This document shows, one piece after another, positions 52,690 to 56,680 of a stretch of DNA of 64,000 bases. Each line of letters begins with the position of its first letter. Position 1 is the stretch's first letter. The notes beneath the pieces were generated by a model, which made no database searches, was not told the origin of the DNA, and was given only the letters and a program-made list of their open reading frames with translations. The DNA is from an uncultured Flavobacteriaceae bacterium (GTDB lineage Bacteria; Bacteroidota; Bacteroidia; Flavobacteriales; Flavobacteriaceae): positions 682,001 through 746,000 of the forward strand of contig CANNCA010000002.1 in assembly GCA_947503005.1 (NCBI GenBank), given 5' to 3'. A program made the position numbers and the translations under genes.

Positions 52690-54276
52690 TTGAATACGAC
52701 TTGCAGGCTTTTAAAAAACAGTATCGTGAATATGAATAAAATAACAATCCTATGGGTCGATGATGAAATTGACCTTCTGAAACCCCATATTATTTTTCTC
52801 CAGAATAAAAACTATGATGTCATCACTTGTCAAAGTGGTCAAGAGGCGCTCGAAGAGCTCGCGCAGTCAAGAGTCGACATTGTTTTCTTGGATGAAAATA
52901 TGCCTGGAATTTCAGGCCTGGAAACCTTGAACGAAATCAAAGTGATGAATTCGAGTCTTCCCGTGGTCATGATTACGAAAAGTGAAGAAGAATTCATAAT
53001 GGAAGAGGCCATCGGTTCTAAAATTGCTGATTATCTTATTAAACCGGTCAATCCAAATCAAATTCTTTTATCCCTAAAGAAAAATTTAGATCACTCCCGT
53101 TTGGTTTCTGAAAAGACTACCGCTAATTATCAGCAAGAGTTTCGAAAGATTGCCATGGACTTATCTATGGTGAACACCTATGAAGAATGGATAGAATTGT
53201 ACAAAAAATTGATTTATTGGGAAATGCGACTTGAGGATATCGAGGACTCTGGAATGTTCGAGATATTGGAATCACAAAAGGTTGAAGCTAACAACCAGTT
53301 CGGCAAATTCGTCGAAAAGAATTATGAAGATTGGTTTACCGATGTGAACGGACCTGTAATGTCACATACCCTATTTAAAGAATGGGTGCAGCCTGAATTG
53401 AAAGGACAACCCACATTGCTCGTCGTGGTTGACAATTTACGATACGATCAGTGGTTCGCTTTTGAAGATACGGTGAGTTCCTATTATAAAAAGACGGATG
53501 AAAAGTCATATATGAGCATTCTTCCAACCGCCACTCAGTATGCAAGAAACGCGATTTTTTCTGGACTTACACCGCTTGCAATGGAAAAAAAATATCCCGA
53601 TTGGTGGAAGAACGATACCGATGATGGCGGCAAAAACTTGTTTGAAGATAAATTCTTAGGGGAGCAAATCAAACGTTTAGGACTAAACCTGAAGTGGGAA
53701 TATCACAAAATAACCAATCTAAAAAAAGGAAAACAGCTATCACAAAACTTCCGCTCTCAAAAGGACAATGATCTAACGGTGATTGTTTATAATTTTGTGG
53801 ATATGCTTTCGCATTCCAAAACAGAAATGGAGGTCATTAAAGAATTAGCGTCCAATGATAAAGCTTATCGCTCATTGACCCAAAGTTGGTTTAAGAACTC
53901 CCCATTATTGGAAATTATACAACAGGCACAAACCATGGGAATGAAACTGATTATCACAACGGACCATGGAACCATCAATGTAAAACAACCTTCTAAATTA
54001 ATTGGGGATAAAGACACCAGTTTAAATCTTCGCTATAAAACTGGAAGGAGTCTCTCTTATGAAGAAAAAGATGTATTGGCAGCTCAAGACCCGAGAAGTA
54101 TCCATTTGCCCAGTATTAATATGAGCAGCTCCTTTGTTTTTGCAAAGAACGATTTGTTTTTTGCCTATCCTAACAACTATAATCACTATGTAAGCTACTA
54201 CCGGAATACCTATCAACATGGTGGGGTTTCTTTGGAGGAGATGATTATTCCATTTATAGTTTTAGAGCCGAAATAA
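52690..54276 (+). CDS. porX: T9SS response regulator PorX (REC plus PglZ/alkaline-phosphatase-like domain); likely start 52732
   Basis: ILWVDDEIDLLKPHIIFLQNKNYDV...FLDENMPGISGLE; PglZ part VVVDNLRYDQW...ITTDHGTINVKQPSK. Confidence 0.95.
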   Translation: MNTTCRLLKNSIVNMNKITILWVDDEIDLLKPHIIFLQNKNYDVITCQSGQEALEELAQSRVDIVFLDENMPGISGLETLNEIKVMNSSLPVVMITKSEEEFIMEEAIGSKIADYLIKPVNPNQILLSLKKNLDHSRLVSEKTTANYQQEFRKIAMDLSMVNTYEEWIELYKKLIYWEMRLEDIEDSGMFEILESQKVEANNQFGKFVEKNYEDWFTDVNGPVMSHTLFKEWVQPELKGQPTLLVVVDNLRYDQWFAFEDTVSSYYKKTDEKSYMSILPTATQYARNAIFSGLTPLAMEKKYPDWWKNDTDDGGKNLFEDKFLGEQIKRLGLNLKWEYHKITNLKKGKQLSQNFRSQKDNDLTVIVYNFVDMLSHSKTEMEVIKELASNDKAYRSLTQSWFKNSPLLEIIQQAQTMGMKLIITTDHGTINVKQPSKLIGDKDTSLNLRYKTGRSLSYEEKDVLAAQDPRSIHLPSINMSSSFVFAKNDLFFAYPNNYNHYVSYYRNTYQHGGVSLEEMIIPFIVLEPK

Positions 54277-54298: not shown

Positions 54299-54988
54299 AT
54301 GAGATTTTTATTTTTCTTGATTTTAACCATAAAAGTGGTAACACTTTCGTCTCAAATTTTAGAAATTAGCGATAAATCGCTTGACGCAGCCATTTTTACG
54401 GTCAACCTAATGAACCGAAACTATGATTCTGCAATAGGTTCTCCTTATATAAAAGATGAATTCGTACCTGCCAAAATCAACAATGGTAGCGTTACCCAAT
54501 TTGTTAGATTCAATTGTGTCGATGACGAAGTTGAAGTCAAACAGGGAATGACCAAAGTGCTATTATTGGATTTAGCCAAAAATCAAAAAATCAGTCTGTC
54601 AGACGGTTCAGAAAAGATTTATCATATCTATAAGTACAAGGATAAAAATAAAAAGGCGAAAGTTACTTTTCTTGAATTGATCAAGGAGGATAAGCAATAC
54701 AGACTTTATAAGAAGGTTCGGAAAAAATTTATTCCAAAACAAAATGCTGAAGGGTATAGGGAAGCGACCCAGGCAGAATTTGTCCGACTAAACACAATTC
54801 ACTTTATAACGGATTTTCAATCGAAAACAGATAAACTTCTTGCGATTCCAACGAAAAAGAAAAAGTTTTTCTCTTTTTTTGGTAAAAAGAAAGGAGAGCT
54901 CGAACGTTTTACAAAGGACGAAAAATTGGATTATTTAAAAAGCGAAGATCTTGAAGAAATTATTGCTTTCTACTTTAAGCAGTTTTGA
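54299..54988 (+). CDS. Hypothetical exported protein
   Basis: Signal peptide MRFLFFLILTIKVVTLSSQ; Lys-rich C-terminal half; co-directional between porX and tsaE. Confidence 0.7.
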   Translation: MRFLFFLILTIKVVTLSSQILEISDKSLDAAIFTVNLMNRNYDSAIGSPYIKDEFVPAKINNGSVTQFVRFNCVDDEVEVKQGMTKVLLLDLAKNQKISLSDGSEKIYHIYKYKDKNKKAKVTFLELIKEDKQYRLYKKVRKKFIPKQNAEGYREATQAEFVRLNTIHFITDFQSKTDKLLAIPTKKKKFFSFFGKKKGELERFTKDEKLDYLKSEDLEEIIAFYFKQF

Positions 54989-55031: not shown

Positions 55032-55436
55032 ATGGTTTACAAATTAGAAGAAATAGAAGCAGTTGCACAAAGCGTTCTTGATAATGCGAAATCAAAGGTG
55101 GTTTGCTTTTATGGACCTATGGGCGCCGGCAAAACTACATTGACCAAAGCTTTAGTCAAAGAATTGGGTGGATCTGATGAGGTTAGTAGCCCAACTTTTG
55201 GAATTGTCAACGAATACCATTTGAAATCAGGTGAGGTACTGGCCTATCACTTTGATTTTTATCGTTTGAATGATGAAACCGAGGCTTTGGACCTTGGTTT
55301 TGAAGATTATTTATCTCAAGGTGTATGGATTTTCATTGAATGGCCTGAAAGAATTCCATCTTTTCTTCCTGATAAGGCCACTAATGTTCATATCAAAATA
55401 TTGGATGAGGTTATGCGTCAAGTTGTTCTTTCCTAG
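55032..55436 (+). CDS. tsaE: tRNA threonylcarbamoyladenosine biosynthesis ATPase
   Basis: FYGPMGAGKTTLTKALVKELG...SSPTFGIVNEY...FIEWPERI. Confidence 0.95.
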   Translation: MVYKLEEIEAVAQSVLDNAKSKVVCFYGPMGAGKTTLTKALVKELGGSDEVSSPTFGIVNEYHLKSGEVLAYHFDFYRLNDETEALDLGFEDYLSQGVWIFIEWPERIPSFLPDKATNVHIKILDEVMRQVVLS

Positions 55437-55691
55437 TTAACTTTCTGGTTGAATTAATCTTCGACTCCTCTATCTCCAGTCTACCCAATACCAATTTTCC
55501 CATTGACAAAATCTCTCTATATCGTTAGAAGTGAGTTTTTATTGTATAATTTTCGACGAACGGTAAAAAAATCGACCAAACCGCTAATTTTAACGTCAAA
55601 ATGCACAATTTTAACATGAAAAACTTATAATACAGTCTTGAATTTCTTACTTTGCGACCGATTTAATTGTCCGATTTCTAACTAAAACTTA

Positions 55692-55919
55692 ATGAAAATG
55701 AAAACGAAACAAATTGTTTTTGGCATTATCGCCTCCGTTACGTTGCTAGCTGTTTCCTGTGAACCAAATACCACTGCTCAAGAAGATGATTTATATGAAG
55801 TTGGTATTGACAAGGGCTCAATTGTTCTTAAAGGTCAAAGCAGCGATATTGATAAAAGTTCAATTGTGCTTAAAAGTAGTGATATAGACAAAAGCTCTAT
55901 AGTGCTAAAAGGAAATTAA
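55692..55919 (+). CDS. 75-aa repeat lipoprotein (three xIDKxSIVLK decapeptide repeats)
   Basis: Lipobox LLAVSC; GIDKGSIVLKGQSS-DIDKSSIVLKSS-DIDKSSIVLKGN; own terminator downstream. Confidence 0.8.
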   Translation: MKMKTKQIVFGIIASVTLLAVSCEPNTTAQEDDLYEVGIDKGSIVLKGQSSDIDKSSIVLKSSDIDKSSIVLKGN

Positions 55920-55942
55920 AGAAAATTGATAAAATTGAATTG

Positions 55943-55970
55943 AAAAGAGCAATAATATTGCTCTTTTTTT
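55943..55970 (+). terminator. Terminator of the 75-aa lipoprotein gene
   Basis: AAAAGAGCAAT-AAT-ATTGCTCTTTT plus T-run. Confidence 0.85.
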
Positions 55971-56011
55971 GTTGTATTCATATACCGCCTTAATAGTCCC
56001 AATCTATTGAC

Positions 56012-56680
56012 ATGAACACAGATAGGAAAAAAGTAAAAAAGAAGATATTCATTGAGTCTATTGTACTCATTTTGATTGCCCTAACCCCCTTTTTTTTAAA
56101 AGCTTACGATTACTTTCCAGGACCTAACAGTCCATTCGCACATGGTCCTATTTCTTTTTTGGGAATAGAAATTGGAAGTAATGGATTTAATAGTATTGAA
56201 ACGAATATTTGGTTTTATTCAAATAAACTGATACCACTAGTTTTATTGATTTGCTGGTTTTTTACTTCAAAAGACTGGTGGTACCATATCCTGATTATCC
56301 CAATCGCCACTTACGCATTTCAACTTTTTGAACTAATTTTTTCTGAAGACAACGTCATAGATACAGAAAATATCTGGTGGTTACTTCCAGTGTGTATGGT
56401 TGTTGTTCCAATTGTTTACTTAGTAAGAATTAAACTATATGACAAATATGTCAATGGTATCGATTTAGAAGCAATGGAAATCGAGCTTAACGCTTTGAAA
56501 GAAAAAAGATCTAAATTTGAAGCTACTAAACCGAAAGACTTGGGCGCACCGAGCCCGGACACTATTGAATACCGTTCGCTTTCTGAATGGCTGGACCAAA
56601 AACTCTCAACAAATAACTTAGAACTGATCTTCAGGCAATTTCAGAACAGCCTCAAAAACTGGATGCATTTGAAATTTTAG
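56012..56680 (+). CDS. Hypothetical membrane protein with C-terminal coiled region
   Basis: Four hydrophobic segments then EAMEIELNALKEKRSKFEA. Confidence 0.7.
   Translation: MNTDRKKVKKKIFIESIVLILIALTPFFLKAYDYFPGPNSPFAHGPISFLGIEIGSNGFNSIETNIWFYSNKLIPLVLLICWFFTSKDWWYHILIIPIATYAFQLFELIFSEDNVIDTENIWWLLPVCMVVVPIVYLVRIKLYDKYVNGIDLEAMEIELNALKEKRSKFEATKPKDLGAPSPDTIEYRSLSEWLDQKLSTNNLELIFRQFQNSLKNWMHLKF

Follow-up and report, generated by a model that had tools for sequence, protein, structure and literature searches.

The window (the whole 64,000-nucleotide stretch of DNA that was analysed, from an uncultured Flavobacteriaceae bacterium) carries a gene for a very small exported lipoprotein with a repeated tail, followed on the same strand by a gene, here called F2, for a membrane protein with four predicted transmembrane helices. 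A phased operator and a probable promoter element precede the lipoprotein gene, and an intrinsic terminator separates it from F2; the coordinates of these features are collected in Table 1.

Table 1. Features of the lipoprotein-F2 locus; positions are those of the window unless given as residues of the lipoprotein.
Feature	Position	Strand	Detail or basis
Phased operator, four direct half-sites WCG(A/T)YnAA	55553..55621	+	half-sites at 55553, 55572, 55593, 55614
Probable -7 promoter element TACTTTGC, TAnnTTGY type	55648..55655	+	read from sequence
Small exported lipoprotein, 75 aa	55692..55919	+	ORF translation, homologues
Signal peptide and lipobox	residues 1-23		
Acidic linker	residues 24-37		
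Repeated tail	residues 38-75		
Tail unit 1, GIDKGSIVLK	55803..55832	+	translation, codon comparison
Tail unit 2, DIDKSSIVLK	55845..55874	+	translation, codon comparison
Tail unit 3, DIDKSSIVLK, six synonymous differences from unit 2	55881..55910	+	codon comparison
Intrinsic terminator, 12-bp stem and T-run	55942..55971	+	hairpin between peptide gene and F2
F2, four predicted TM helices, 222 aa, both termini predicted cytoplasmic	56012..56680	+	no Pfam/NCBIfam family

Translation of the ORF gives MKMKTKQIVFGIIASVTLLAVSCEPNTTAQEDDLYEVGIDKGSIVLKGQSSDIDKSSIVLKSSDIDKSSIVLKGN, and bears out the coordinates and sequences of the three near-identical decapeptides that the first-pass annotation had reported. 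Compared codon by codon, the only differences between units 2 and 3 are the six synonymous ones that it had named, with no amino acid changed; unit 1 departs from both at two residues, having G in place of D and G in place of S. The lipobox and the short acidic stretch of that description are both there: AVSC at residues 20-23 ends the signal peptide in Cys23, as in a Sec/SPII lipoprotein, and the acidic stretch reads QEDDLYE. The LES surface-export signal is an acidic motif soon after the +1 Cys, with an optimum of C-X-K-(D/E)2 (PMC5080379); in the window lipoprotein (CEPNTTAQEDD) the acidic run begins only at about +9, outside that pattern. The gene is present in a single copy in its own genome and, as had been proposed, belongs to no named family, its best Pfam and NCBIfam matches lying far below the curated cut-offs.

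A single-sequence search of 301 genomes of the family recovered clear relatives of the lipoprotein, which align over a 45-residue core consisting of the signal peptide, the lipobox and then approximately NxTAEDDxLYExG(V/I)DKxK(I/L); the mature lipoproteins have 25-90 residues. The repeat corresponds to the C-terminal tail unit of this family, which follows the pattern (V/I)(D/E)Kx(K/S/E)(I/V/L)... (DIDKSSIVLK in the window protein) and is present in one copy in most relatives, the range being one to six. Multi-unit tails of 2 to 6 copies are found in about a fifth of the relatives, for example IDKSEVIVK x3 (L089), VDKTKIPSQA x3-4 (L091, L093), VDKTQLINGDKK x3-4 (L097, L174), VDRSKITTTNRK x4 (L179), VDRTKIRTSN x6 (L194, Pricia antarctica) and VDRTKITKGTDA x4 (L210). 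These repeat-bearing homologues exclude the outcome, a lack of homologues with conserved repeats, that the first-pass annotation had equated with a non-functional ORF. Zobellia species differ widely in their unit (KIPSQA, QLINGD, KITTTN), and identical unit types recur in other genera. Many Maribacter peptides have a plain signal peptide with no lipobox cysteine and keep the tail (AMAAPIIDIDNQELGIDKRKLTQKI); because so many homologues lack it, the lipobox does not define the family, so that conservation extends to export and to the tail but not to the lipid.

Repeats occur in 20 of the 58 lipidated members and in 0 of the 30 non-lipidated ones (raw counts, with kinship ignored), a distribution that bears on the leading idea of the first-pass annotation, namely that the protein is a multi-copy precursor from which proteases free decapeptides as pheromones for neighbouring cells. 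The near-identical units 10-15 residues apart, the discrete tail types, which are reminiscent of pherotypes, and a sibling class adjoining TPR kinases (described below) would all suit such a precursor; however, most members have a single unit, the repeats are confined to lipidated forms, the spacers vary within and between proteins (GQSS, SS, none, KQSF) with no conserved cleavage site seen on inspection, and no dedicated protease gene adjoins. We consider a precursor unlikely, chiefly in view of the restriction to lipidated forms and of the processing site that inspection failed to reveal; since the repeats are limited to lipidated members, added reach or avidity of a tethered tail fits them better.

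The repeat copies are old and have been held identical as peptides. Pooled over 21 repeat proteins, one of which (L090) belongs to the sibling class associated with TPR kinases, dN/dS between copies is 0.062 (bootstrap 95% interval 0.037-0.097), with a dN of 0.11 and a dS of 1.8 that is near saturation; this strongly supports the earlier proposal that selection acts on the peptide itself, and makes the family a clear natural case of peptide copies kept identical across saturating synonymous divergence. About 20 related proteins carry such within-protein repeats, with old synonymous and almost no amino-acid divergence, and because the same pattern recurs in them the window repeat is more than a chance occurrence. 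A slippage product or junk ORF, an idea to which the small size of the gene lends itself, is ruled out by the dN/dS of 0.06 and the deep conservation; the conserved operator and terminator likewise count against a non-functional ORF, and we regard this explanation as refuted for practical purposes.

The gene had been described as standing alone; it is instead paired with F2 in a conserved two-gene unit, of which it is the first member. F2 is the gene that follows in essentially all the genomes. The F2 start lies 92 bp downstream of the lipoprotein gene (about 90 bp in relatives), and in other genera the peptide gene overlaps it. In nearly all relatives tsaE and ald enclose the pair, usually as one locus per genome, and at one locus (L087) at which it has moved off tsaE the two genes are still together and still with ald. 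Starting the search from F2 rather than from the lipoprotein yielded 126 distinct F2 genes, and a tail-bearing exported peptide gene lies just upstream of all of these except two on truncated contigs. F2 itself matches no Pfam or NCBIfam family above the curated cut-off; it has no recognisable output domain and no TPR, DNA-binding or kinase domain, and a structure search found no PDB relative for its fold (best E 2.4), its predicted model being only moderate (pLDDT 72, pTM 0.45).

The copy number of the two genes varies at a few loci: L116 (4785-6573) has three tandem full peptide-F2 cassettes with differing tails, L124 (5997-7150) has six near-identical peptide genes in steps of ~201 bp before one F2, and L125 (5369-6299) has four peptide gene copies ahead of one F2. 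Besides tsaE and ald, other genes lie near the pair. A response regulator with REC and PglZ domains (52690-54276), whose architecture we take to be PorX-like and linked to type IX secretion control, is near the pair in many relatives, and a 229-aa exported-looking protein with no Pfam match (54299-54988; F16) is found at this spot in close relatives only. L089, L096, L102, L103 and others encode a divergent 400-436-aa protein resembling two F2 units, neighboured by a 125-138-aa gene that has no Pfam match and looks helix-turn-helix-like by eye; both form an insertion close to the pair, in the interval from tsaE to the gene for the PglZ-type response regulator.

The pair's neighbours are thus tsaE, ald and other genes conserved at the site in relatives, and no dedicated protease, export, processing or modification gene was recognised beside it. 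This setting weighs on the possibility that the genes form a toxin-immunity or bacteriocin-immunity pair, in which F2, with its four helices, would confer immunity to a small, cationic, exported peptide. Such a pair would match the small, mostly cationic peptide beside a membrane protein, the matched types (below) and the tandem cassettes of L116 with their different tails, but it sits poorly with the fixed housekeeping site that tsaE and ald mark out in nearly all relatives, with lipid anchoring, with the lack of export or processing genes nearby, with a sibling class beside sensor kinases and with strong purifying selection on the copies. We consider it very improbable.

The four half-sites of the operator are spaced by 19, 21 and 21 bp, the last of them (ACATGAAA) being degenerate. 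Across 88 related upstream regions, half-site pairs at 21-22 bp number 50, versus 0.2 in dinucleotide shuffles, and the half-sites stand at fixed distances from the start codon in relatives; the conservation of this phased operator indicates that the peptide gene is specifically regulated. In their 21-bp spacing the half-sites recall LytTR direct repeats, although the match is imperfect. The putative -7 element is consistent with the SM5 promoter class described for F. psychrophilum (PMC9723704). The terminator noted in the first-pass annotation is real, both as hairpin (55942-55968) and as T-run, and 80 of 85 relatives keep it where 1.7 would be expected; lying between the two genes, it should yield peptide in excess over F2. 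No Rfam match to a structured RNA was found in 55400-56100. The only other strict copy of the operator in the genome lies in the promoter of a TPR sensor histidine kinase (L302 811-3014; C2:797310-799513) and is retained in part by two close relatives but largely missing from more distant ones; elsewhere, matches precede two genes that were recognised by eye as gldK-like and as of secreted type (L333, L334). Given the poor conservation of the second site and the genes that follow the other matches, we claim no operator regulon.

Two sibling classes of peptide gene were found. In class 2 (L126, L127, L129, L255, L256, L258-L260) a lipoprotein whose tail is acidic (such as AIDKDEITEDDT or IERDEIKETDV) accompanies an F2-like membrane protein, the match of which to the F2 profile is weak (E 2e-6 to 0.01), and several of the loci add a 100-aa protein of no known family. 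Class 3 (L265-L294; L090, L128, L130, L131, L132) consists of tiny acidic lipoproteins of the form SCTTDSIAETDTLYETQATEGDDGD; at 28 of 30 loci the gene immediately downstream encodes a TPR sensor histidine kinase. The TPR domain of these kinases is predicted from hydropathy to be periplasmic, between a signal/TM segment and a second TM segment. Some class-3 tails are repeated, and pairwise comparison of their codons gives 43 synonymous and 4 nonsynonymous differences in L274 (x5), and 18 and 0 in L265 (x3). Upstream of the class-3 genes of L282 and L287, TACTCATA-like elements ~21 bp apart were seen by eye, forming a different phased operator.

The tail varies more closely with F2 than with the flanking genes tsaE and ald. 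Over the 88 loci that supplied all four of tsaE, ald, F2 and a tail, distances between tails follow those between F2 proteins once tsaE and ald are removed (partial r 0.36, p 0.001), a partial Mantel result of a kind that may overstate significance among related sequences; the same tests leave the tail no residual link to tsaE (-0.05) or ald (-0.10), and none to the cytoplasmic C-tail of F2 (r 0.015, p 0.41). The tail-F2 correlation is 0.45 among lipidated forms alone with the peptide leader controlled too. By parsimony, nine tail types require 17 changes on the F2 tree, 34 on the tsaE+ald tree, 38 on the tsaE tree and 44 when shuffled. Peptide type thus matches F2 type, by association in both analyses. 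The F2 columns that covary with the tail are mainly periplasmic (mean 0.116 versus 0.060; rank test 8e-5; permutation 0.002), and mean charges are opposite, at +3.6 for the tails and -3.7 for F2 loop 2; class-2 pairs are inverted, with tails at -2.4 and a slightly basic loop 2 at +0.9.

Part of this association could reflect co-transfer of adjacent genes; tsaE and ald, equally adjacent, are without it. In the extreme case the tail and F2 would be swapped between strains as one DNA segment and would not interact at all, which the separation of about 90 bp would allow and with which the correlation of the leader with F2, weaker though it is (r 0.18), is in keeping. We judge linkage of this kind unlikely as the whole explanation, as no residual correlation is left with tsaE or ald, although both border the pair at comparable distances, the covariation is concentrated on the periplasmic side of F2 and absent from its cytoplasmic tail, and the charges pair across classes. 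Shared ancestry is not fully removed by these tests, and contact between tail and F2 is therefore supported, not proven.

Together, these results suggest an undescribed peptide-and-partner signalling pair in marine flavobacteria, in which the tail of the lipoprotein is probably a ligand or regulatory subunit of F2; a signalling role is favoured mainly because the class-3 lipoproteins adjoin TPR sensor kinases. A protein-binding role was among the alternatives raised in the first-pass annotation, and the apparent coupling of the tail to its membrane neighbour, as judged from sequence, makes a protein-binding ligand the best fit and changes how the architecture is read. Under the mechanism that we propose, the signal peptide and lipobox would take the peptide out of the cytoplasm, the C-terminal unit would touch the periplasmic face of the four-helix inner-membrane protein F2, and the tail and F2 would change jointly as matched types. 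The unit would have been duplicated in the window protein, with copies staying identical since each would have to fit one F2, and the peptide would be made in excess of F2 through the intergenic terminator. Binding of the peptide might then set the state of F2, most likely for use as an envelope or cell-cell signalling module. The family, the pairing, the selection on the copies, the covariation, the terminator and the operator are computational results; physical binding, the face bound and the signal output are what we infer from them. The weakest element of the proposal is F2, in view of its lack of a known domain, its moderate model and its lack of a structural relative. Moreover, should the short single-unit forms reside in the outer membrane, their 25-residue tail would be too short for an inner-membrane partner.

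A variant of this proposal is that the pair is an envelope sensor and not a cell-cell signal, with F2 reporting, for instance, lipoprotein traffic or inter-membrane distance through a tethered peptide whose repeats provide reach or avidity, in the manner of the enterobacterial pairs RcsF-IgaA and NlpE-CpxA. The confinement of repeats to lipidated members (20/58 versus 0/30) suggests such a function, as does a locus that is usually single, fixed in the chromosome and vertically kept; however, many Maribacter members have dropped the lipid anchor and retained the tail, and a sensor of lipoprotein traffic would have no need of tails in discrete types that change from one related species to another. 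We hold an envelope sensor to be a possible but minority explanation. Taken further, the ligand reading would point to genetically encoded peptide communication in Bacteroidota, with polymorphic exported lipopeptides recognised by cognate F2 receptors and, for the siblings, by the periplasmic TPR domains of sensor kinases; this extension is tentative, and at present we would not expect it to hold in full.

Flavobacteria are major marine polysaccharide degraders. We found no description of the peptide-F2 pair, nor of genetically encoded peptide signalling of such a kind in Bacteroidota, in the open-access papers searched. The locus provides a concrete candidate in cultured genera (Maribacter, Zobellia, Muriicola, Robiginitalea), a two-gene unit whose members come in matched types, with a regulatory region that is conserved and a further branch beside sensor kinases; even as an internal envelope sensor, it would offer a first handle on two unnamed protein families.

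Among the closest known systems are the RRNPP pairs, in which a short secreted propeptide is encoded beside its receptor, a TPR protein of 250-500 aa (PMC10075063). As in Rap-Phr, PlcR-PapR and NprR-NprX of Firmicutes, the gene for a short exported propeptide, the C-terminal peptide of which varies, adjoins that of its partner here, and the two form discrete matched types; the partners of the class-3 siblings (L265-L294) also have TPR domains, but these are predicted periplasmic and are fused to a histidine kinase. F2, in contrast, is a 222-aa four-TM protein with no TPR or DNA-binding domain, and the peptide is lipidated or SPI-exported, its tail units are repeated and its hosts are Gram-negative Flavobacteriaceae. 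AgrD-AgrC and ComC-ComD likewise co-encode an exported peptide and a membrane partner that diverge as matched types, but F2 is without a kinase domain, no processing or export gene was recognised near it and no modification of the peptide is evident. Like RcsF-IgaA and NlpE-CpxA of enterobacteria, the pair has a lipoprotein that may contact an inner-membrane regulator through its exposed part; the sequences are unrelated, and here the mature protein is of 25-90 residues, the tails are repeated and the anchor has been dispensable in evolution. Braun lipoprotein Lpp and the entericidins are also very small lipidated proteins, but they lack the variable repeated tail and the pairing with F2, and the conserved C-terminal lysine that links Braun lipoprotein to peptidoglycan has no counterpart in this family, whose C-termini vary (K, I, G, N, S, A). 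Finally, yeast alpha-factor, cyanobactins and graspetides resemble the window protein in carrying tandem near-identical short units in one precursor; they differ from this family, in which one unit is the rule, modification and processing enzymes are not adjacent and repeats occur in lipid-anchored forms only.
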